A stretch of 64,000 nt of DNA from Alkalisalibacterium limincola (GTDB lineage Bacteria; Pseudomonadota; Gammaproteobacteria; Xanthomonadales; Xanthomonadaceae), in contig NZ_VRTS01000003.1 of the NCBI RefSeq assembly GCF_008017755.1, positions 248,001 through 312,000 of the forward strand, in the 5' to 3' direction. The notes under the pieces are model-generated. The model worked only from the letters and a program-made list of their open reading frames with translations. It was not told where the DNA came from and did not search any database. The position numbers and the translations under genes were made by a program. Below, piece after piece: positions 224 to 56,060 of the stretch (position 1 is its first letter; every line of letters starts with the position of its first letter).

Positions 224-2217
224 ATGTGCGGGGTAGCCGGGGCGTGGGGACTTAGCCACTTCGCCCGCCTTCGCGATTGCCTGCCGCTGATGACCCGGTC
301 GATCGCGCACCGCGGCCCCGACGACGAGGGCGTGTGGAGCGATGAGACGGCCGGCATTGCACTGGGCCACCGGCGCCTGGCGATCCTCGATCTGAGCGAG
401 AGCGGGAACCAGCCGATGGTGTCGGCCTCCGGTCGCTGGGTGATCGTGTTCAACGGCGAGATCTACAACCACGAATCGCTGCGGCATGCACTCGAGGAGG
501 CTGGCAAGGCCCCTGCCTGGCGCGGACACTCCGACACCGAGACCTTGCTCGCCGCGATCGACGCCTGGGGCTGCATCGAGGCGATCCAGCGCTGCACCGG
601 CATGTTCGCGATCGCCCTGTGGGACCGGCGCACGCGCGAGCTGTGGCTGCTGCGCGATCGGATCGGTGAGAAACCGCTGTGCTACGGCTACGTCGACGGG
701 GCCTTCGTGTTTGCCTCGGAGGTGCGGGCCCTGCGCCACGTGCCGGGGTTCCAGGGCGCGATCGACCGGGATGCGCTAGGGCTGATGCTCAACTACAACG
801 CGCTCCCGGCGCCCTACGCGATCTACGCCGGGATCCACAAGCTACCCGCCGGAACCTGGCTGCGCCTGCGTGAGCGCGACCTGCGCGGCGCGCACCTGCC
901 GCAACCGCAGGCGTACTGGTCGGTGGCCCAGGCCGCGGCCGAAGGCGCGCGACATCCCTTCCCGGGCAGCGCCGAAGAGGCTGTCGACCAGCTGGAAGGA
1001 CTGCTGGGGGATGCGGTGGGCCTGCAGATGGTGGCCGACGTGCCGCTTGGGGCGTTCCTCTCGGGGGGCGTGGATTCCTCGACCATCGTCGCGTTGATGC
1101 AGGCGCGCAGCCGCCGGCCCGTGAAGACCTTCACCATCGGCTTCGACGAGGAGGGGTTCAACGAAGCGGGGCATGCCCGTGAAGTGGCCCGCCACCTGGG
1201 CACCGAGCATACGGAGCTGTATGTTCGGCCGGAGGATGCGCTGGATGTGGTCCCGCGCCTGCCCACGTTGTATGACGAGCCGTTTGCCGACAGTTCCCAG
1301 ATTCCCACCTACCTGGTATCGGCCCTGGCCCGACAGCACGTCACGGTCAGTCTGTCCGGCGACGGCGGCGACGAGCTGTTCCTGGGCTATCCGCGCTATC
1401 TGGAGGCCAGCCAGCAGAAGCGCGGCCTGGAACGCCTGCCGGGGGCCATGCGACGCGCGCTGGGCCATACCGCCCAACGCACGCCAGGATGGGTGCTGGC
1501 CGGCCTGAGGCAGGTGGGGGCGAGGGTGCCCGCCGCGTCCAGACTGCGCCACCTCGACGCCGCCCGCCTGGAACGGTTCGGGGATCTGCTGTTGGCCCGG
1601 GACCCGATGGCCCGCTACCACGCGATGATGTCGGGCTGGACCGGCCTGGAATCCGTCGTGCTGGGGGCTCGCCCACGAGACACCGCCTACCAGCAGACCG
1701 CCGCGTGGCGCGGGGCGATGGGGTTCGCCGAGAGCCTGGGGGTCATCGACCTGCTGGAGTATCTGCCCAACGACATCCTCGCGAAGGTCGATCGCGCGGC
1801 CATGGCCGTGAGCCTGGAGACCCGGATCCCGATCTCGACCACCGGGTGGTGGCCTTCGCGCTCTCGTTGCCACTGGACAGGAAGTGGCGCGATGGACAGG
1901 ACAAATGGGTGTTGCGGCAGCTTTTGTACCGCTACGTGCCCCGCAAGATGATCGATCGACCCAAGATGGGTTTCGGCGTTCCCATGGCAGCCTGGCTGAG
2001 GGGCCCGCTTCGGGAGTGGGCCGACGCCCTGCTGGATCCCGCAGCCATGCGGGCCCAGGGGTACCTCGACGTGCCCAAGGTGCAACGCAAGTGGGCCGAG
2101 CACCGCTCGGGGCAGCGGGACTGGCAGTACCATTTGTGGGGAATCCTCATGTTCCAGGCATGGCTCCAGGCGCAGAGCGTGGCGGCAAGCCCCCACAGGG
2201 AACGGTTGGCGGGGTAG
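224..2217 (+). CDS. asnB: Asparagine synthetase (glutamine-hydrolysing), frameshifted near 1830
   Basis: Predicted to convert aspartate, glutamine and ATP to asparagine. The start ATG follows AAGGGAG by six bases, and the protein begins MCGVAG, so the N-terminal nucleophile Cys2 of a class II glutaminase is present. The ATP-binding loop SGGVDSS lies near residue 280 and a second loop SLSGDGGDELFLGYPRY follows. Reading is continuous to about 1830 and then continues one frame over (LDHRVVAFALSLPLD to the TAG at 2215). The length is one base short of a whole number of codons, so one missing base (expected ETR-P-x-LDHR context) explains the break. The repaired product is about 664 residues, normal for the polysaccharide-cluster type of AsnB. 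Its role there (amidation of sugar acids or asparagine supply) is inference. Confidence 0.88.
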
Positions 2218-2455: not shown

Positions 2456-2500
2456 AAGTTCCTTGGGTGAAAAATTTTGACACCGCTGTCACAGATTTGA
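2456..2500 (+). promoter_or_regulatory. Conserved upstream box of propeller gene 1
   Basis: The segment contains AGTTCCTTGG, then GAAAAA, then TCACAG followed by TTTGA. The same order recurs before the neighbouring paralogue at 4246-4290. The distance from AGTT to TCACAG is 32 bases in both copies, and the distance to the TTG start is similar (76 and 72 bases). It is probably a shared promoter or operator. No matching -35/-10 pair is obvious in both copies. Confidence 0.45.
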
Positions 2501-2564
2501 CTCGCAGCTTAAAAGCAAAGTTCGCCCTGCTACGCATCCCCCAGCGTAGAGAGCGAGGAAGAAA

Positions 2565-4061
2565 TTGAAGCGAGCAAATTTCGGTGTACTTGCCGTTCCG
2601 GCAGTAGCCTTCATCCTGGGTGTCGTGGGTTCCGCGGCTCCGATCTCCGTCTCCGCCAACGACCGCCTGATGGTCGATACCGGAAGTTCAGCCACCCCAT
2701 CCTCACCGCCGCCGCACTCGCGTGGCCGTGCCCGCCGTGTGATCGAGGAGAACCTGCCCCAGCCGGAGCCCGAGCCGACCCCGCCGCCGCCGCCACCGGA
2801 ACCCACTCCGCCACCGCCGCCGCCGCCGGAACCCACGCCGCCGCCGCCCACCCCGCCGTCGGGTTCGATGGTCAACGCGTGCGCCACGCACTACGACAAC
2901 GGCTATACCCCGGTGCTTGGCCAATCGTCGCTGACCCAGCCCTCGGCCTCTCGTCCGGCCAAGAACGTGCGCACCACCGATGCACGTTTCGGTACCTGCG
3001 TTGTTCGCGTGACCGACCACCGCAACGAGCCGACCAACCAGTTCGCCCGGACGCCGTATTCACGCAAGCAGGCGTTCAACGTCGATGACTCGCGCATGAT
3101 GATCGTGGCGGGCGACGGCACCTACCATCTCTACGATGGCAACAGCCTCGCCTACATCCGGGCCCTGCCGGAGCTCGGCGGCGATGATGCCGATGCCCAG
3201 TGGCACCCGACCGACCCGGACCGGCTGCGCTTCTTCGACCGCAACAACCGCATGCGGCTGGCCGAGATCAACGTCCGCACCGGTGCCGTCACCACGCTGG
3301 TCGACTTCAACAACGTCGGATTGCCGTGGAGCGGGGTGACCCGGGTCTGGACACGTTGGGAGGGCGCTCCGTCGAAGGACGGTCGCTACTGGTGCCTGAT
3401 GGCCCAGGGGAGCAACGACAGCATGCGCGGCGTGTTCACGTTCGACCTGCAGACCAAGTCGATCATCGGCACGCGTTCGATGAGTGCACGCCCCGATCAC
3501 GTCAGCATGTCGCCCTCGGGCCGCCATTGCGTGGTCTCGCATGTGCGGGCGAACGGAGGCACCACCTCCTGGAACCGCAACCTGACCCAGTCGCGCCACC
3601 TGCACGCCGCCTCGGAGCACTCGGACCTGGCCCTGGCCAAGAACGGCGACGACCTGTACGTGTTCGTGGACTACGACACCGATGGCAGCCTGAAGATGAT
3701 CAATCTGGATACCGGGGCCCATACCTCGATGTTCAGCACGTACATCAGCGGCTCCGCTACCGCGTACCACATCTCGGCACGGAACCTGGACACCCCGGGC
3801 TGGATCCTCCTGTCGACCTACAGCAGCAGCGGTACCGAGCGTTGGCTGCACCGCAAGGTGATGGCGGTCGAGCTCAAGCAGAACCCGACCATCATCAACC
3901 TGGCGCACCACCATTCGGCCTCCAACGGCTACTGGACGGCACCGACGGCCACGGTGAACCGCGACTTCACGCGCGTGGTGTTCAATTCGAACTGGTCCTC
4001 GACGTCGGCTACCGACGTGGACGCCTACCTGATCCAGTTGCCGCACGGACTGGTGGAGTAA
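2565..4061 (+). CDS. Secreted beta-propeller protein with proline-rich linker (paralogue 1)
   Basis: Function unknown. The TTG start has GAGGAAG six bases upstream. Residues 1-32 form a signal peptide (hydrophobic GVLAVPAVAFILGVVGSAA). A low-complexity linker of PEPTPPPPP-type repeats follows at about residues 62-100. The remaining roughly 390 residues look like a TolB/WD40-like beta-propeller, with repeated strand pairs such as GDGTYHLYDGNSLAYIR, DPDRLRFF, INVRTGAVTTLVDF and RPDHVSMSPSGRHCVVSH. Several cysteines (NACATHYDNG, FGTCVVRV, YWCLMAQG, GRHCVV) could form disulphides outside the cytoplasm. It is a tandem paralogue of the next gene and ends in the same residues, PHGLVE. It sits next to a polysaccharide cluster, so a role at the cell surface or in matrix binding is possible but not shown. 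Confidence 0.8.
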   Translation: MKRANFGVLAVPAVAFILGVVGSAAPISVSANDRLMVDTGSSATPSSPPPHSRGRARRVIEENLPQPEPEPTPPPPPPEPTPPPPPPPEPTPPPPTPPSGSMVNACATHYDNGYTPVLGQSSLTQPSASRPAKNVRTTDARFGTCVVRVTDHRNEPTNQFARTPYSRKQAFNVDDSRMMIVAGDGTYHLYDGNSLAYIRALPELGGDDADAQWHPTDPDRLRFFDRNNRMRLAEINVRTGAVTTLVDFNNVGLPWSGVTRVWTRWEGAPSKDGRYWCLMAQGSNDSMRGVFTFDLQTKSIIGTRSMSARPDHVSMSPSGRHCVVSHVRANGGTTSWNRNLTQSRHLHAASEHSDLALAKNGDDLYVFVDYDTDGSLKMINLDTGAHTSMFSTYISGSATAYHISARNLDTPGWILLSTYSSSGTERWLHRKVMAVELKQNPTIINLAHHHSASNGYWTAPTATVNRDFTRVVFNSNWSSTSATDVDAYLIQLPHGLVE

Positions 4062-4088
4062 AGGGGGCTGATGCCCTGGCTGCTCCGG

Positions 4089-4120
4089 ACACGCCCCGCT
4101 CGCGCGGGGCGTGTTCGTTT
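4089..4120 (+). terminator. Intrinsic terminator after propeller gene 1
   Basis: A perfect 10-bp stem (ACACGCCCCG with CGGGGCGTGT) around a six-base loop is followed by TCGTTT. It lies 28 bases after the stop codon. Confidence 0.75.
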
Positions 4121-4245
4121 GGACGATCCCATGCCTGCCAACCCACCAGTTTCCAGCCTACAGGTTTGAACTGGCACTTAACCCGTGCGCAAGGCCTGGG
4201 CCTGAGATCCCGCCCTTACGCGAACCCGGGGGCTGTCCAATGTTC

Positions 4246-4290
4246 CAGTTCCTTGGACGAAAAAAAATGCGGCGCAGTTCACAGTTTTGA
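4246..4290 (+). promoter_or_regulatory. Conserved upstream box of propeller gene 2
   Basis: This is the second copy of the box seen at 2456-2500: AGTTCCTTGG, a run of A, then TCACAG and TTTGA at the same 32-base spacing. The surrounding intergenic sequence is otherwise not alike, so the box is conserved selectively between the two paralogues. Confidence 0.45.
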
Positions 4291-4350
4291 TTTTCAAAAT
4301 TTCACACAGTCTTCGCACTGCCCACCCCCCAGGGCAGCGTGAGGTTAACT

Positions 4351-5931
4351 TTGAATATCAAGCACCTGCGTGCCATTTCTGGCACTGTACTTTCGATAGC
4401 GCTGGTCTCCGGGCTGGCAAATGCCCAGGCCCTGCCGGAGCTGGCCATGCCCACGTGGTCGCAGCAACCACTGACGTGGAGCAGCGCTGCGGTCACCAAC
4501 ATCGCCGGCCAGACGCCCATCAATGCCACCCCGGTACCGATCCTGCCCGCGCAGACGGTGGGTGCGCACACCGTTCCGTTCGACTATTTGAATTTCGCCT
4601 GGGCCTTTCCGAGCGCCGCCCCGCCCGTGGTGACGCCGCCTCCGGGTCCCGGCCCTGCCCCGACGCCGCCGCCCCCGGGCCCCACGCCGCCGCCTGCTCC
4701 TACGCCGCCGCCGCCGTCTCCGGCGCCGCTGCCGCCGGGCCTGAGTGTCGAGGCCTGCGCCGGCCACTATGACGGTGGCTACACCCCGATCCTGGGCCAG
4801 TCCAACGTGGCTCCCGATTCGCGGCCCCGCCCGGCGAAGGGTGAAGCCGTGACGGACTCGGCCTACGGCACCTGTGTCGTTCGCGCCACCGACCACCGCA
4901 ACGAGCCGACCAACCAGTTCGCCCGGACCCCGTATTCACGCAAACAGGCGTTCAATGCCGACGACTCCCGCATCATGGTCGTCGCCGGTGACGGCACCTA
5001 CCACCTCTACGACGGCAACAGCCTCGCCTACATCCGGGCGCTGCCAGAGCTGGGGGGTGACGATGGCGATGCCCAGTGGCACCCGACCGATCCGGACCGG
5101 CTGCGCTTCTTCCACCGCAACAACCGCATGCAGCTGTCCGAGATCAACGTCGAGACGGGCACCGTCACCACGCTGGTCGACTTCAACAACGTCGGGTTGC
5201 CGTGGAGTGGTGTCACCCGGGTCTGGACGCGCTGGGAAGGTGCCCCGTCCCATGACGGCCGTTACTGGTGCCTGATGGCCCAGGGGTCGGGCGACACGAT
5301 GCGCGGCGTCTTCACCTACGACCTCCAGACCCAGTCGGTGGTGGGAACGCGTTCGATGAGTGCGCGCCCCGACCACGTCAGCATGTCCGCATCGGGTCGC
5401 CACTGCGTGGTCTCCCATGTCCGGGCCAACGGCGGTACGACTTCCTACAGCCGTGACTTCAGCTCGTCGCGCCACCTGCACGCGGCCTCGGAGCATTCCG
5501 ACCTGGCGCTGTCGAAGGCGGGCGAGGACCTGTACGTCTTCGTCGACTACGACACCGACGGCAGCCTGAAGATGATCAACCTGGACACCGGCGCCCACAC
5601 CTCGATGTTCAGCACCTACATCGGCGGCACGGCCACCGGTTACCACATCTCCGCGCGCAACAGCCAAGTGCCCGGCTGGGTCCTGCTGTCGACCTACGGC
5701 AGCAGCGGCAACTGGTTGAGCCAGAAGTTGATGGCGGTCGAGCTCAAGGCCAACCCGACCATCATCAACCTGGGCCACCACCGTTCGTCCGCGAACAGCT
5801 ACTGGTCGACCCCCGTGGCGACGGTCAACAACGACTTCACCCGGGTGATGTACAACTCCAACTGGGGCTCGTCTTCGGACGGCGACATCGAGGCCTACAT
5901 GCTCCAGCTCCCGCACGGGCTGGTGGAGTAG
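4351..5931 (+). CDS. Secreted beta-propeller protein with proline-rich linker (paralogue 2)
   Basis: Tandem paralogue of the gene at 2565. From CAGHYDGGYTPILGQS onward the two proteins are mostly identical, with the same strand motifs, cysteines and PHGLVE ending. The signal peptides and linkers differ completely. I chose the TTG at 4351 because GTGAGG lies six bases upstream, matching the TTG start of the paralogue. A GTG at 4339 in the same frame would add four residues. The signal peptide runs about residues 1-25 (hydrophobic core ISGTVLSIALVSGLANA). A region of about 60 residues then precedes a proline-rich linker of PPPGPGPAP and PTPPPPSP type, and then the propeller. Conservation of the propeller with a freely varying linker suggests the propeller is the functional part and the linker a spacer. 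Function unknown. Confidence 0.8.
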   Translation: MNIKHLRAISGTVLSIALVSGLANAQALPELAMPTWSQQPLTWSSAAVTNIAGQTPINATPVPILPAQTVGAHTVPFDYLNFAWAFPSAAPPVVTPPPGPGPAPTPPPPGPTPPPAPTPPPPSPAPLPPGLSVEACAGHYDGGYTPILGQSNVAPDSRPRPAKGEAVTDSAYGTCVVRATDHRNEPTNQFARTPYSRKQAFNADDSRIMVVAGDGTYHLYDGNSLAYIRALPELGGDDGDAQWHPTDPDRLRFFHRNNRMQLSEINVETGTVTTLVDFNNVGLPWSGVTRVWTRWEGAPSHDGRYWCLMAQGSGDTMRGVFTYDLQTQSVVGTRSMSARPDHVSMSASGRHCVVSHVRANGGTTSYSRDFSSSRHLHAASEHSDLALSKAGEDLYVFVDYDTDGSLKMINLDTGAHTSMFSTYIGGTATGYHISARNSQVPGWVLLSTYGSSGNWLSQKLMAVELKANPTIINLGHHRSSANSYWSTPVATVNNDFTRVMYNSNWGSSSDGDIEAYMLQLPHGLVE

Positions 5932-5960
5932 GGCTCCGGCATCACCCGTTGAAGGAAGAA

Positions 5961-5992
5961 GGCGCCCCGCTCTAGCGGGGCGCCTTCGTTTG
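5961..5992 (+). terminator. Intrinsic terminator after propeller gene 2
   Basis: A perfect 10-bp stem (GGCGCCCCGC with GCGGGGCGCC) around TCTA is followed by TTCGTTTG, 29 bases after the stop codon. Confidence 0.8.
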
Positions 5993-6051: not shown

Positions 6052-6744
6052 ATGCACCCAGAAGCGAACGCATGGCGGGGCGGCTTACAGGTCTTCGACA
6101 TCGATCTGGACGCCCTCGATGGAAGGTCGGCCCTGAACGGGCTTGACCTGCTCGACGACGAGGAACGCCGGCGTGCCGCCCGGATGGCGACACCTTTCCT
6201 GCGGCAGCGTTTCGTCGCAGCTCACGCTGCCACGCGCCTCGTCCTCGCCGAAGCGCTCGGCGTGGACGCCGCGAGTCTCGGGTTTGCCACCGGCTGCCAC
6301 GGCAAGCCCTTGCTTGCCACGCCCCGGCTGCAGGGATTCCACTTCAACCTGAGCCATTGCCAGGGGAGGGCACTGCTGGCGATCGCGGATTGCGAGGTCG
6401 GCGTCGACGTCGAGGGCTGGATCGGTCGCGACACCGGGCGACTGGCGGTGGACGTGTTGTCTGCCACAGAACTGGCCCGGTTCCATGAATGTCCGTCCCA
6501 CGACCAGCCGCGCGAGCTGGCCCGTCACTGGTCCGCCAAGGAAGCGCTGCTCAAGGCGTGCGGGCTCGGCCTGCAGCTGGATCCGCTGTCGGTTCCAGTC
6601 GACACCCGCGGCGGATGGCACAGGCTGCCGCCACCGGCCGGTTCTTCACCGTGGTGGCTTCAGCGGATCGAACTCGACGGACCGTTTTGCGCCTTCGTGG
6701 CCAGCGAACGACGCATCGATGCCGCCCTGGTAGCGTATCCGTGA
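6052..6744 (+). CDS. 4'-phosphopantetheinyl transferase, Sfp/EntD type
   Basis: Transfers the phosphopantetheine arm of coenzyme A to carrier proteins. The 230-residue protein has the expected motifs in order: GCHGKPLL near residue 81, FNLSHCQG near 99, VGVDVEGW near 118 (magnesium-binding Asp and Glu), and WSAKEALLKACGLGL near 160. The length and pattern match Sfp-type enzymes that serve nonribosomal peptide, polyketide or polyunsaturated lipid synthesis, rather than the shorter AcpS. No carrier protein gene is visible nearby. The only related partner in the window is the lone adenylation-domain gene at 13248-14894. The gene stands alone, with a weak ribosome binding site, and converges on the phosphoketolase gene. 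Confidence 0.88.
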   Translation: MHPEANAWRGGLQVFDIDLDALDGRSALNGLDLLDDEERRRAARMATPFLRQRFVAAHAATRLVLAEALGVDAASLGFATGCHGKPLLATPRLQGFHFNLSHCQGRALLAIADCEVGVDVEGWIGRDTGRLAVDVLSATELARFHECPSHDQPRELARHWSAKEALLKACGLGLQLDPLSVPVDTRGGWHRLPPPAGSSPWWLQRIELDGPFCAFVASERRIDAALVAYP

Positions 6745-6778: not shown

Positions 6779-9148
6779 TCAATGCGGCCAGGTCCACTCG
6801 CGGATCGCGGCCTTGTCCACGCCGTACTCGTGCGCGTGGCGGCGGCAGTCGATCTGCTCGTCACGCAGCTTCTCCTTGACGTGGGCCCCGGTGGCGGCCA
6901 GCTGCGGCACCCGGTTGATGGCTTCGATGGCGAGGCTGAACCGATCGATGTTGTTCTCGATCGCGAGCTCCATCGGGGTGTTGATGCCCCCGCGCTCCTT
7001 GTACCCCCGGACGTGAAGGTTGCCGTGGTTGGTCCGACGATAGGCGAGCCGGTGGATCAGCCACGGGTAGCCGTGGAAGTTGAAGATGATCGTCTTGTCG
7101 CGCGTGAACAGCGAGTCGAAGTCGGCATCATCGAGCCCGTGGGGGTGCTCCTCGCGTGGCGTCATCCGGAACAGGTCGACCACGTTGACGAAGCGGATCT
7201 TCAGCGCCGGGAAGTGCTCCCGGAGCAGGGCGGTGGCCGCCAGCGCCTCCAGGGTGGCGATGTCGCCGCAGCCGACCATGACCAGGTCGGTTTCGCAGCC
7301 CTGGTCGTTGCTTGCCCAGTCCCAGATGCCGATGCCCTTGGTGCAGTGTCGTATCGCGGCCTCCATGTCCAGGAACTGCAGGTGGTCCTGCTTGTCGCAG
7401 ACGATCACGTTGACGTTGTCATGGCTGCGCAGGCAGTGGTCTGCCGTGAACAGCAGGCAGTTGGCATCCGGTGGCAGGTAGATGCGGGCGACTTCCGGAC
7501 TCTTGTTGACGACGATGTCCAGGAACCCCGGGTCCTGGTGGGTGAAGCCGTTGTGGTCCTGCCGCCAGACGGTGGACGTGATGAGCAGGTTGACCGAGGC
7601 CACCGGCGCGCGCCACGGCAGGTCCCTGCACATCGCCAGCCATTTCGCGTGCTGGTTGTACATCGAGTCGATGACATGCACGAAGGCTTCGTAGGTGGCG
7701 AAGAGGCCATGGCGGCCGGTCAGCACATAGCCCTCCAGCCAGCCTTCGAGCGTATGTTCGGAAAGGATCTCCATCACCCGGCCCTCCGGGTCCAGGTGGC
7801 CACCGTCGGCGTCCTCGGGAAGCATGCCGTCGAGCCAGAACTTCCCTGACGCCTCGTAGACCGCATCGAGCCTGTTCGAGCTGGTCTCGTCGGGCCCGAA
7901 GAGTCGGAAGTTGCCCGGATTGCGCTTCATGATGTCGCGCAGCATCTCCCCCAAGGGCCGCGTGTTCATCGCCCGCAGCGTGGCGGGGGTGCCTGCCGCC
8001 ACCGCGTAGCTGCGGAAGTCGGGCATGCGCAGGTCGCGACGCAGCAGGCCACCGTTTGCATGCGGGTTGGCGCCCATGCGGCGGGTGCCGCGCGGAGACA
8101 GTTCGCGCAGGGCAGGGACGAGGCGCCCGTGGTCGTCGAACAGCTCCTCGGGTCGGTAGCTGCGTAGCCAGTCCTCCAGTGCACGCCGGTGTGCCTCGTT
8201 TCCGCGGGCATCCTTGAGTGGAACCTGGTGGGACCGCCAGGAGCCTTCGACCTTGTGCCCGTCGACCTCCTTGGGCCCGGTCCATCCCTTGGGCGAGCGC
8301 AACACGATCATCGGCCAGGTCGGTCGCGTCACTTCGTCCGTCTGCCGGGCCTGCTGCTGAATCGCACGGATCCGTGACAGGCAGTGGTCCATCGCCTCGG
8401 CCATCTGCCGATGCATATCCATCGGCTCGCTGCCCGACACCATGATGGGTTCCCAGCCATAGCCACGCAGCAGGCTGACCAGCTCTGTTTCCGGTATGCG
8501 CGCCAGCACCGTGGGGTTGTTGATCTTGTAGCCGTTGAGGTGCAGCACCGGCAGCACGGCGCCGTCGCGCTTCGGGCTCAGGAACTTGTTCGAATGCCAG
8601 GCGGTGGCCAGCGGTCCGGTTTCCGCCTCCCCATCGCCGACCACGGCGACCACCAGCAGGTCGGGATTGTCGAAGGCCGCGCCAAAGGCGTGCGAAAGGC
8701 TGTAGCCCAGCTCGCCACCCTCGTGGATGGAGCCGGGCAGCTCCGGCGTGCAGTGGCTGCCGAAGCCTCCCGGGAAGGAGAACTGCTGGAACAGGAGCCG
8801 CATGCCTTCCTCGTCCTCGCCCTTGTCGGGATAGGTCTCGGAGTACGCGCCTTCCAGGTACACCGGCCCAAGCACGCCCGGCGCGCCGTGTCCGGGGCCG
8901 GCAATGAAGATCGCATCGACATCGTGATCGCGAATCAGGCGGTTGGTGTGCACGTAGACGAACGACAGCCCGGGGCTGGAACCCCAGTGCCCCAGCAGGC
9001 GCTGCTTGATGTGTTCAGGCTCGAGCGGTCCACGCAGCAGGGGATTGTCCTGCAGGTAGATCATGCCCACGGCGAGGTAGTTGCAGGCGCGCCAGTAGGC
9101 GTCCAGCGCGTCCAGCTCCTGCTCGTCGATCGATGTGCCGTTGCTCAT
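6779..9148 (-). CDS. xfp: Phosphoketolase (xylulose-5-phosphate/fructose-6-phosphate)
   Basis: Thiamine-diphosphate enzyme that cleaves xylulose 5-phosphate (and often fructose 6-phosphate) with phosphate to acetyl phosphate plus a shorter sugar phosphate. The 789-residue length is normal. Recognisable segments are [18 protein letters not shown] near residue 53, AGPGHGAPG near 83, the ThDP motif [10 protein letters not shown] near 169 with NKF 15 residues on, and [11 protein letters not shown]. The ATG at 9148 follows AAGGAGAG. It overlaps the TGA of the upstream acetate kinase gene by four bases (ATGA), so the two are translationally coupled. Together they turn sugar phosphates into acetate and ATP without carbon loss. 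A longer in-frame start at 9184 would lie inside ackA and lacks a binding site. Confidence 0.95.
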
Positions 9149-10269
9149 TGCTGCTCTCCTTGCCGATCCATCATCAGGCGCCACTGGCGTACCATTTCCT
9201 CTTCTTCATTGGCACGCATCGCCAGCACCGTAACGGCCGAGGAGGGTGCGCTGACACGCACGACGTCCTCGACCGACGCATCGTTGCTGGCCGGGTCCAG
9301 GACGACTCCGAACGGCGCCAGCGTGGCGCAGGCCTCTTCGCGCAGGGAGGCATCGTTCTCGCCCACGCCCCCGGTGAACACCAGGGCGTCGACCCGACCG
9401 AGCACCGCGATGAGGCCGCCGATGCAACGCCGCAGGCGATGGACGTACACAGACAGCGCGAGTCGCGCTGCCGGGTCCCCAGTGCGCGCCGATTCCCGGA
9501 CCCGACGCATGTCGGCGTGCCCGCAAAGGCCAAGCAGGCCGCTTCGCCGGTTCAGGAGGTCGTCCAGCCCTCCGGCATCGAACTCCCCGGACCTCAGGAG
9601 ATGCACGATCGCGCCGGGATCCAGGTCACCGCAGCGCGTTCCCATCACCAGACCCTCCGTGGGCGTCATGCCCATCGACGTGTCCACGCTTCGCCCCCCG
9701 GAAATCGCGCAGGCACTGGCCCCGAAGCCCAGGTGCAGGCTGATGATGTTCAGCTGCTCCGGCGACCTGTCCATCGCCTGGGCAGTGCGCCGGGCGACGG
9801 CGGCGTGGGATATGCCGTGGAAACCGTAGCGACGCACTCCGTGGTTTTGGGCAAGCGAGGAGGGCAGTGCGTACGTGGCCGCCTCGGCGGGAATCGTATG
9901 GTGGAACGCGGTGTCGAAAACCGCGGCCTGCGACGCCCCGGGCATGCGGCTCTGGCATGCATCCATGAGTGCGAGACTGATGGGGTTGTGCAGCGGGGCA
10001 AGCGGCGCGAGGCGGGCGATCTGCGCGCGGACCTCCGGCGTCACCAGCACAGGCTGCCGGAACAGCGCACCGCCGTGCACCACCCGATGGACGACCCATG
10101 CCGGTGGATCGAGGCCAGCGTCGGCAAGCGTCTGCTCCAGGGCCGTAGTGGCTGATTCCGGCACATGCCAGTCCACCGGCACGCTGGTCGCCTCGAGCCG
10201 TGGGTATCCATCGTCGGAAAACCAGCAGGACTTCAGGGAAGAGCTGCCGGGGTTGAGGACCAGGAGCAC
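9145..10269 (-). CDS. ackA: Acetate kinase, first gene of the phosphoketolase operon
   Basis: Interconverts acetyl phosphate plus ADP with acetate plus ATP. The 374-residue protein, slightly shorter than the usual 400, has [11 protein letters not shown] at the N terminus, HRVVHGG near residue 81, [10 protein letters not shown] near 135, [20 protein letters not shown] and FTGGVGEND. One feature is odd: the phosphate-loop motif usually read HLGNGAS is HLGFGAS here, an Asn to Phe change in a nucleotide-site loop. The other catalytic residues (Arg in HRVVHGG, Asp in FDTAFH, His in GFHG, Arg in GTRCGD) are present. It is the promoter-proximal gene of a two-gene operon with phosphoketolase. Confidence 0.92.
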
Positions 10270-55434: not shown

Positions 55435-56060
55435 ATGACTGCAAGCACGCACTTCTCGACCAAGGAACGCATCATCGGCGCGCCGAGGAGCTTTTCGCCC
55501 AGCACGGCTTCTCCGGCACTTCCCTGCGCCAGGTGACCAGCCGCGCCGACGTCAACATCGCGGCGGTGAACTACCACTTCGGCTCCAAGGAAAACCTCAT
55601 CAACGAGGTGTTCCGCCGCCGCCTCGACGAACTCAGCGCCAACCGCCTCATCGCCCTGAAGGCGGCGATGGCCAGGGACGAGGTCAAGCTCGAGGAGGTG
55701 CTGGCGGCCTTCATCGAACCTGCCCTGGCGCTGACCATCGACCACCGCGGCGGCTCGTCCTTCGTGCGCGTCATCGCCCGCGCCTATGCCGAGAAGAACG
55801 ATGGCCTGCGCAAGTTCCTCTCAGACAACTACGGCCACGTGCTGCGCGACTTCGCCCGCGCCATCCAGTCCTGCCTGCCGGAGCTGGGCAAGGAGGAGCT
55901 GTACTGGCGCCTGGACTTCATCGCCGGTGCGCTGACCTACGCCATGGCCGACTTCGGCCTGATCAAGCGTCGGCCCAGCGCCAGCGAAAAGGACCACTGC
56001 AACCATGCCGCGCGCGAGCTCATCGCGTTCGCCGCCGCCGGCCTACGCGCGCCGACCTGA
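55435..56060 (+). CDS. TetR-family regulator (PsrA-like), frameshifted near 55484
   Basis: Probable repressor of the fatty-acid oxidation genes that follow. The N terminus MTASTHFSTKERIIGA is in one frame and AEELFAQHGFSGTSLRQVTSRA continues in the next. The length is one base short, and restoring one G gives a perfect TetR helix-turn-helix ending VNIAAVNYHFGSKENLINEV. The repaired protein has 208 residues. The phrase AAVNYHFGSK and the C-terminal FFAAGMRA-like ending (IAFAAAGLRAPT) resemble PsrA, a fatty-acid-responsive regulator in Pseudomonas. Position 57 bases before the beta-oxidation gene supports this, but the effector is inferred. Confidence 0.82.

Follow-up and report, generated by a model that had tools for sequence, protein, structure and literature searches.

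What do two adjacent genes for secreted propeller proteins do at the border of a polysaccharide gene cluster? The question is raised by a stretch of 64,000 nucleotides from Alkalisalibacterium limincola (contig NZ_VRTS01000003.1, positions 248,001 to 312,000), called here the window, in which twin 1 (2565..4061, plus strand, 498 amino acids) is followed by twin 2 (4351..5931, plus strand, 526 amino acids). A first-pass annotation, made from the letters alone, had described tandem twin propellers with a secretion signal, TTG starts and a common PHGLVE end. The open reading frames (ORFs) and their translations confirm this description, each protein having a hydrophobic leader and a proline-rich linker, both recognised by eye, and a C-terminal propeller of about 395 residues that a structure model bears out. 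The annotation went no further than a generic propeller. We find that the twins belong to a family that is real, has a known fold and carries no label in the libraries searched; its interesting part is the family as a whole, with its phage copies and the repeated paired loss of two residues, the window pair being a branch with a degenerate site.

The fold was approached through the propeller of twin 1 (2868..4058, plus strand), modelled by AlphaFold2 from a 77-row alignment (model md9450f198a77; predicted local distance difference test score, pLDDT, 93.5; predicted template modelling score, pTM, 0.92). An oligogalacturonate lyase is first in both fold rankings. Foldseek places 3c5m at the top (E 7e-15, template modelling (TM) scores 0.62/0.65, next match E 1e-10), and VIA-align gives Z 29.1 for 3c5m (3.5 A over 328 residues) and 28.9 for 3pe7 (327 residues), the next chain listed having 20.4; 3pe7 appears in the VIA list and is not among the 50 Foldseek matches listed. 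A member with an intact site was also modelled (pLDDT 94.4) and yields VIA Z values of 29.2 and 28.9 for the two lyases, then 21.0 among the matches listed. Both twin 1 and this member thus have the fold of 3c5m and 3pe7, and the fold search that had been suggested as a check turns the generic propeller into that of oligogalacturonate lyase (Z 29 vs 20 for the next listed). No close match to a characterised enzyme or binding-protein family emerged, since the nearest relative by fold is distant in sequence. In fact, neither twin matches a Pfam or NCBIfam model at its cut-off, and against PDB sequences twin 1 finds only weak matches, the best being the proline-rich stretch of an AcfD-type protein (1.8e-4) and a surface-layer protein (2.2e-4).

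Oligogalacturonate lyases, polysaccharide lyase family 22 (PL22), are seven-bladed propellers and manganese enzymes. In a profile comparison our family matches them end to end (33-396 on 11-385, E 6.4e-5). The lyase set was taken from ten PF14583 loci, of which seven were aligned together with one divergent member, L141, L142 and L145 being left out; L136 aligns gaplessly to 3pe7 (1-386 on 1-386), and lyase numbering was carried over through it. On this alignment A358, T360, Y355 and H211 of twin 1 fall on H353, H355, Q350 and H192 of the lyase, A358 and T360 standing where the family has E358 and H or Q. We take H287, Q350, H353 and H355 to be the manganese ligands of the Yersinia oligogalacturonate lyase; the family does not have this set and shows Y355, E358 and H/Q360 instead, together with H301, which we infer to be the counterpart of H287. 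The family thus differs from PL22 in having Glu in place of one metal His, and the window copies differ further in lacking both site positions. Moreover, its proteins are secreted or lipid-anchored, whereas the lyase is cytoplasmic.

Polar positions are conserved in the family. Numbered along the propeller of twin 1, H251 is kept in 76 of 77 members, D253 in 77, H301 in 75, E358 in 74, and H or Q at 360 in 73; all five are kept together in 71/77, and the six exceptions include both twins. In twin 1 the family consensus T-E-P-H/Q is represented by the codons T357-A358-P359-T360 (3936..3947, plus strand), recognised from the family counts and the profile alignment to lyases as a degenerate form of the putative metal-site motif. 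Over 118 domains, including viral ones and the two alike copies L161 and L165, 99 retain E358 as well as H/Q360, 16 have lost the pair and three have lost just one of the two (Fisher p 1e-16, ignoring relatedness). A tree computed without the site columns requires at least 10 changes and is unrooted, so that "lost" may mean loss or gain; it omits L019-L021, which repeat other contigs, domains with unknown residues and domains of fewer than 300 profile positions. Because position 360 changes with 358 in an average of 7.1 out of 8 independent tree pairs and in no pair goes the other way (median p 0.016 by sign test, L165 dropped), the two positions appear to act as a unit. A double-loss copy lies beside an intact one in seven bacterial loci (L062, L068, L078, L091, L093, L096 and L097, the degenerate copies of L093 and L097 being very divergent) and in the viral locus L164; among the most divergent copies (L093_8256, L097_7967 and the Lautropia third copies) the motif cannot be aligned with certainty.

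The A. limincola genome holds three copies, the twins and a third paralogue. At positions 355, 358 and 360 they have Y, A or T, and T or V, and all three keep H211, H251, D253 and H301. They form one clade (Shimodaira-Hasegawa-like approximate likelihood-ratio test, SH-aLRT, 100 in a quick tree where the third copy is on a long branch), and because all of them lack E358 and H/Q360, the loss of the pair most simply predates their duplication.

How the twins themselves diverged bears on the first-pass claim of a frozen propeller with a free-running linker. The propellers are alike (80% identity over 397 residues), although "nearly the same residue by residue" was too strong, 77 of 394 aligned residues being different, 18/44 in the first 45 positions and 59/350 thereafter. 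Leaders and linkers do share little: the proportion of nonsynonymous differences (pN) is 0.412 before the propeller (93 aligned codons) vs 0.126 within it (395 codons). The linkers, delimited by eye on the translations, occupy residues 64-100 of twin 1 (2754..2864, plus strand) and 88-130 of twin 2 (4612..4740, plus strand), and the propeller of twin 2 (4747..5928, plus strand) is defined by alignment with twin 1 and the family. Synonymous sites of the propellers have diverged as well (91 of 299 same-residue codons differ; synonymous rate dS 0.61, nonsynonymous rate dN 0.138, dN/dS about 0.23; synonymous proportion pS 0.42, pN 0.13), and this is mostly ordinary purifying selection rather than a frozen domain. 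Gene conversion, which the annotation had proposed to look for along the genes, leaves no clear tract, because on permutation of same-residue codons no 30-codon stretch of the propeller is unusual (most similar p 0.27, most diverged p 0.82) and neither is the longest identical run (p 0.11). Same-residue codons differ in 13/26 of the first 45 positions vs 78/273 after (Fisher p 0.042, with a boundary chosen by eye), so an old conversion confined to the later part of the propeller is conceivable; the N-terminal part is also the fast part family-wide (mean top-residue frequency 0.41 vs 0.62). The pattern is mostly that of a tandem duplication followed by purifying selection.

The regions upstream of the twins (2457..2549 and 4247..4337, plus strand) are related too. 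Their 95-column alignment scores 52, and shuffles reach at most 36 (2000 single-base shuffles of two 150-base segments) or 46 (1000 shuffles of whole intergenic stretches). The 3.03 Mb assembly contains exactly two copies of a core element, AGTTCCTTGGNNGAAAAA, which was picked after inspection of this alignment; one copy precedes each twin. If up to 3 mismatches are allowed, the window has one further match, at 55452. Since the upstream regions are related and the element is found only at the twins, each promoter region was probably duplicated along with its gene. TTG is the sole start that preserves the leader of twin 1; in twin 2 an in-frame GTG at 4339, four codons upstream of TTG, is an equally possible start. 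A terminator-like hairpin found by scanning follows each gene, as had been claimed (4089..4120 with a GC-rich stem read at 4089-4114, and 5958..5991 with a stem at 5958-5987, both on the plus strand).

The family extends well beyond this genome. A first search for relatives matched 9 of 60 genomes, four of them (G008, G028, G033 and G041) through the proline-rich linker only, and the propeller itself is present in five, including A. limincola and one distant case (G042). With a profile it is found in 22 of 369 genomes of the class, own included, some hits being partial. A single-protein scan of species-genome contigs found no relative, while the profile scan of the same contigs found 101, the best 80 of which give 75 distinct loci in Lysobacterales, Burkholderiales, Myxococcota, Actinomycetota and others. 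No match was found in 72,556 plasmid records, and among the papers searched, available in part, none could be recognised as describing the family. Tandem sets are common in it and not peculiar to the window: at least two propeller genes are present in 26/75 loci, a count to which L029 and L065 contribute fragments and L047 a gene containing unknown letters, and which leaves out L075, whose propeller gene was lost in gene calling and is also outside the tree. A lipobox-like motif, by a crude pattern, occurs in 46 of 110 propeller proteins. Some relatives (L019, 9144-11951; L021, 10070-13123) extend into long repeats at the C-terminus or have two propellers in one protein with PKD-like domains between them, as judged by eye.

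Genes for polysaccharide synthesis are frequent around the bacterial copies. In the 75 loci, which are not independent (several are from Silanimonas, Lautropia and Pseudoxanthomonas), we counted Wzy-type genes in 31, AsnB-type in 29, GT4 in 24, Wzx-type in 10, polysaccharide deacetylase in 10 and sugar-nucleotide dehydrogenase in 7, these classes being built by blastp single linkage over uncurated ORF calls; the representative of the Wzy class, L046, matched only the IctB model, below cut-off. The survey of genomic context proposed by the annotation can also be read on the 54 well-flanked loci of at least 15 kb, where Wzy-type genes occur in 27, AsnB-type in 25 and at least one of the two in 28. 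In 20 genomes totalling about 72 Mb, Wzy_C was matched 43 times, once below cut-off, so that about 0.6 of 54 random 20-kb stretches would be expected to contain one, a rough comparison because the Wzy class is a blastp cluster. A second, non-polysaccharide neighbourhood is seen in seven Lautropia loci (L040, L048-L051, L054, L057), with a UbiE-like methyltransferase, named by eye, downstream in six. The PEP-CTERM/XrtA exopolysaccharide system was considered and rejected for the window genome: TIGR03109 has 0 matches in the assembly, which is 95.5% complete, and no PEP-CTERM tail is seen by eye at the ends of its three proteins. Neighbours of two relatives (L032, L072) match TIGR03108 (618.2 of 816.9 bits), TIGR03101 and TIGR03100, all below cut-off.

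Phages carry the domain as well. The best viral match of the twin 1 model is A0A8E5NQ64 (1172 amino acids, TM 0.90 by query, 28% identity), and a search of phage records with the twin sequence gave a single hit among 50,697, Xanthomonas phage LucasX, whose LUCX_246 has the same length. LUCX_246 has a long repetitive N-terminus and an Ig_2 match. Its gene comes one small gene after that of a tail protein carrying a gene transfer agent (GTA) TIM barrel and is followed immediately by a GH5 cellulase gene. The available passages of the LucasX paper, which uses other gene numbers, do not discuss it (PMC9009655). The host of LucasX produces xanthan, and this propeller and Ig-like protein with the adjoining cellulase (L166, 13903-19684) is a candidate pair for attacking it. 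Viral contigs gave 10 propeller loci, on 9 contigs, and in the tree the viral copies are scattered over about five positions. A tail fibre J gene is upstream of the L158 copy, a GH108 endolysin gene comes directly after the L160 copy, and two small genes separate the L165 copy from an endolysin gene before it. In all four phage settings with nameable neighbours, tail or lysis genes are close by, in one of them together with a GH5 cellulase. The tail-type features belong to these phage relatives and not to the window genes. On a viral contig of 350 kb, L164 (2-5807) encodes two adjacent large proteins with propeller and repeats, one with the site kept and one with it lost, and the same contig carries a further propeller copy (L156).

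In A. limincola the third paralogue (54% identity; G000:C14:246069-247241, equal to L018:15958-17259) lies about 760 bp before the window start. Upstream of it, model matches identify a priming sugar transferase, a Wza-type export protein, a GT2, two GT4-type transferases, Wzy_C (PF04932 over cut-off) and AsnB, and a Wzc-like protein, a third GT4 and a MurJ-like flippase were recognised by eye. The twins were said to border a polysaccharide cluster, and these neighbours make it one of Wzx/Wzy type. The order is cluster, flippase, third propeller, methyltransferase (by eye), second AsnB, twin 1, twin 2 and phosphopantetheinyl transferase. The second AsnB-type amidotransferase gene adjoins twin 1 (224..2217, plus strand; PF00733, PF13522 and PF13537 over cut-off for the first frame) and has a frameshift near 1840, its C-terminal part being in the frame of ORF 1489-2217; decay and assembly error cannot be told apart here. 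The 4'-phosphopantetheinyl transferase adjoining twin 2 (6052..6744, plus strand) matches PF01648 with 50.8 bits against a cut-off of 25. Beyond it, phosphoketolase and acetate kinase genes, named by eye, stand side by side on the minus strand (6779-10269). AsnB-type amidotransferases suggest uronamide-containing, and hence uronate-derived, polymers. Elsewhere, AsnB-type (wbpS) and wzy genes of a Rubrivivax polysaccharide cluster were hit in a transposon screen (PMC3684757).

From the fold, the family and its spread, its polysaccharide and phage neighbourhoods and the paired loss, all obtained by computation, we tentatively propose that the family binds an acidic exopolysaccharide and, where the site is intact, probably cleaves it, the window copies probably being pseudo-lyases that only bind. 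The secreted or lipid-anchored propellers would act on the cell's own polymer or, if phage-borne, on that of the host. An extracellular polysaccharide is suggested as ligand because polymer-building genes accompany about half of the bacterial loci and tail, endolysin and cellulase genes the phage copies, and a uronate-containing chain because the fold is lyase-like with conserved polar positions; such a chain may be held over the central hole, along the axis of the propeller. Many members with H301, E358 and H/Q360 would bind metal there and break the chain by metal-assisted beta-elimination. In the window genome, all three copies would descend from one ancestor whose site had already changed, and, because E358 and H/Q360 are lost and yet purifying selection persists, they are likely to grip the polymer and leave it uncut while projecting from the cell or the matrix; in the twins the proline-rich stretch may serve as stalk.

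Parts of this proposal have known parallels. In Vibrio cholerae biofilm, the secreted propellers of Bap1 and RbmC bind the organism's own Vibrio polysaccharide, a likeness of proposed role only (PMC11695861). RbmB of the same species is a lyase that trims the biofilm polymer and, like some members of our family, is encoded among the genes for that polymer, here the biofilm gene cluster; unlike them it is predicted to be a beta-helix (PMC11637428). In phage annotation, n-bladed propeller depolymerases form a class in DepoScope, with 96 listed proteins, many of them predictions (PMC11326577); what they have in common with the phage proteins described here is a propeller domain.

Several observations weigh against the proposal. 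We know of no family member known to bind or cut a sugar. The likeness to the lyases is distant in sequence (profile probability 64%): PF14583 matches 5/77 members with E up to 0.1 (best 2.5e-4), neither twin at E 10, the propeller of twin 1 not at 0.1, and nothing in the window genome at E 0.001. Generic WD40 models surpass it both in members matched and in E value (THOC3 23/77, best 3e-8; Prp19 17), and when the family profile is compared with PDB sequences, WD40 and TolB chains come first (best E 0.013), with no lyase among the 60 of 65 matches listed. The family has not kept the catalytic set of PL22: at the column of R217, which we take to be a catalytic-site residue of PL22, Arg stands in 17/77 only (Thr in twin 1), and H207 has no clear counterpart, so that the family does not belong to PL22 and resembles it in fold and in some metal-site positions. 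In the profile alignment H251 and H301 are out of register with lyase H242 and H287, their pairing being based on motif and blade order. Nor is H301 clearly tied to the pair: of the 16 double-loss domains, 10 retain H301 as well as H251 and 6 retain neither, and the tree test gives no significant association (3.0 of 8 pairs, median p 0.25). As for the polymer, 24/54 loci of at least 15 kb have none of the six polysaccharide gene classes, and the window genome's own cluster has no sugar-nucleotide dehydrogenase over cut-off, the two of the genome being on another contig, so that within the cluster AsnB is the single pointer to acidity.

The matches to WD40 models, which are the commonest and strongest in Pfam and lead the PDB sequence search, and the loci devoid of counted polysaccharide genes would suit a structural or adhesin propeller with no function on sugars, an ordinary secreted scaffold of WD40 type in which the conserved residues serve the fold alone. 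We consider this unlikely: oligogalacturonate lyases stand about 8 Z units above the other chains listed, the two conserved polar positions are lost as a pair, and phage copies lie near tail, endolysin and GH5 genes. These phage settings also bear on the suggestion that the propellers assist assembly or export of the polymer, as a periplasmic or outer-membrane Wza/Wzy accessory or in length control, and do not act on the finished matrix. Such a role would agree with the Wzy-, Wzx- and AsnB-type genes near many copies and with the frequency of the lipobox-like motif, but phages, which are not polymer builders, carry the domain, many loci are outside polysaccharide clusters, and upstream element and terminator-like hairpin are separate for each twin; we regard it as distinctly improbable.

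The twins might also be active lyases or hydrolases with a rearranged site, the loss of E358 and H/Q360 being compensated by other residues, which would trim or clear exopolysaccharide in the manner of AlgL or RbmB. The retention of H211, H251, D253 and H301 in all three copies and the clear purifying selection on the propeller point in this direction. A lyase within a biofilm polysaccharide cluster also has its precedent in RbmB (PMC11637428). Two positions aligned with PL22 metal ligands are gone, however, and they are lost jointly in 16/118 domains, as expected if one function disappears, so that activity of the twins seems improbable to us and binding without cleavage is the reading we prefer for them.

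A wider picture, which we put forward as rather doubtful, is that this unnamed propeller family is a polysaccharide tool common to bacteria, within or behind exopolysaccharide clusters and often in tandem, and to phages, near tail and lysis genes. In it a cutter would have turned repeatedly into a gripper through the same two residues, often leaving one cutter beside one gripper, and the A. limincola genome, with three grippers and no cutter, would have gone furthest. If it is true, it would give a name to the family behind many hypothetical secreted proteins of exopolysaccharide clusters, and would suggest a possible means for cells to trim or hold the matrix they make. Phages would then be a source of enzymes or lectins directed at acidic slime, Xanthomonas phage LucasX being a test case at hand, and the repeated paired loss of two residues would offer a direct handle on the change from a lyase to a binding protein.

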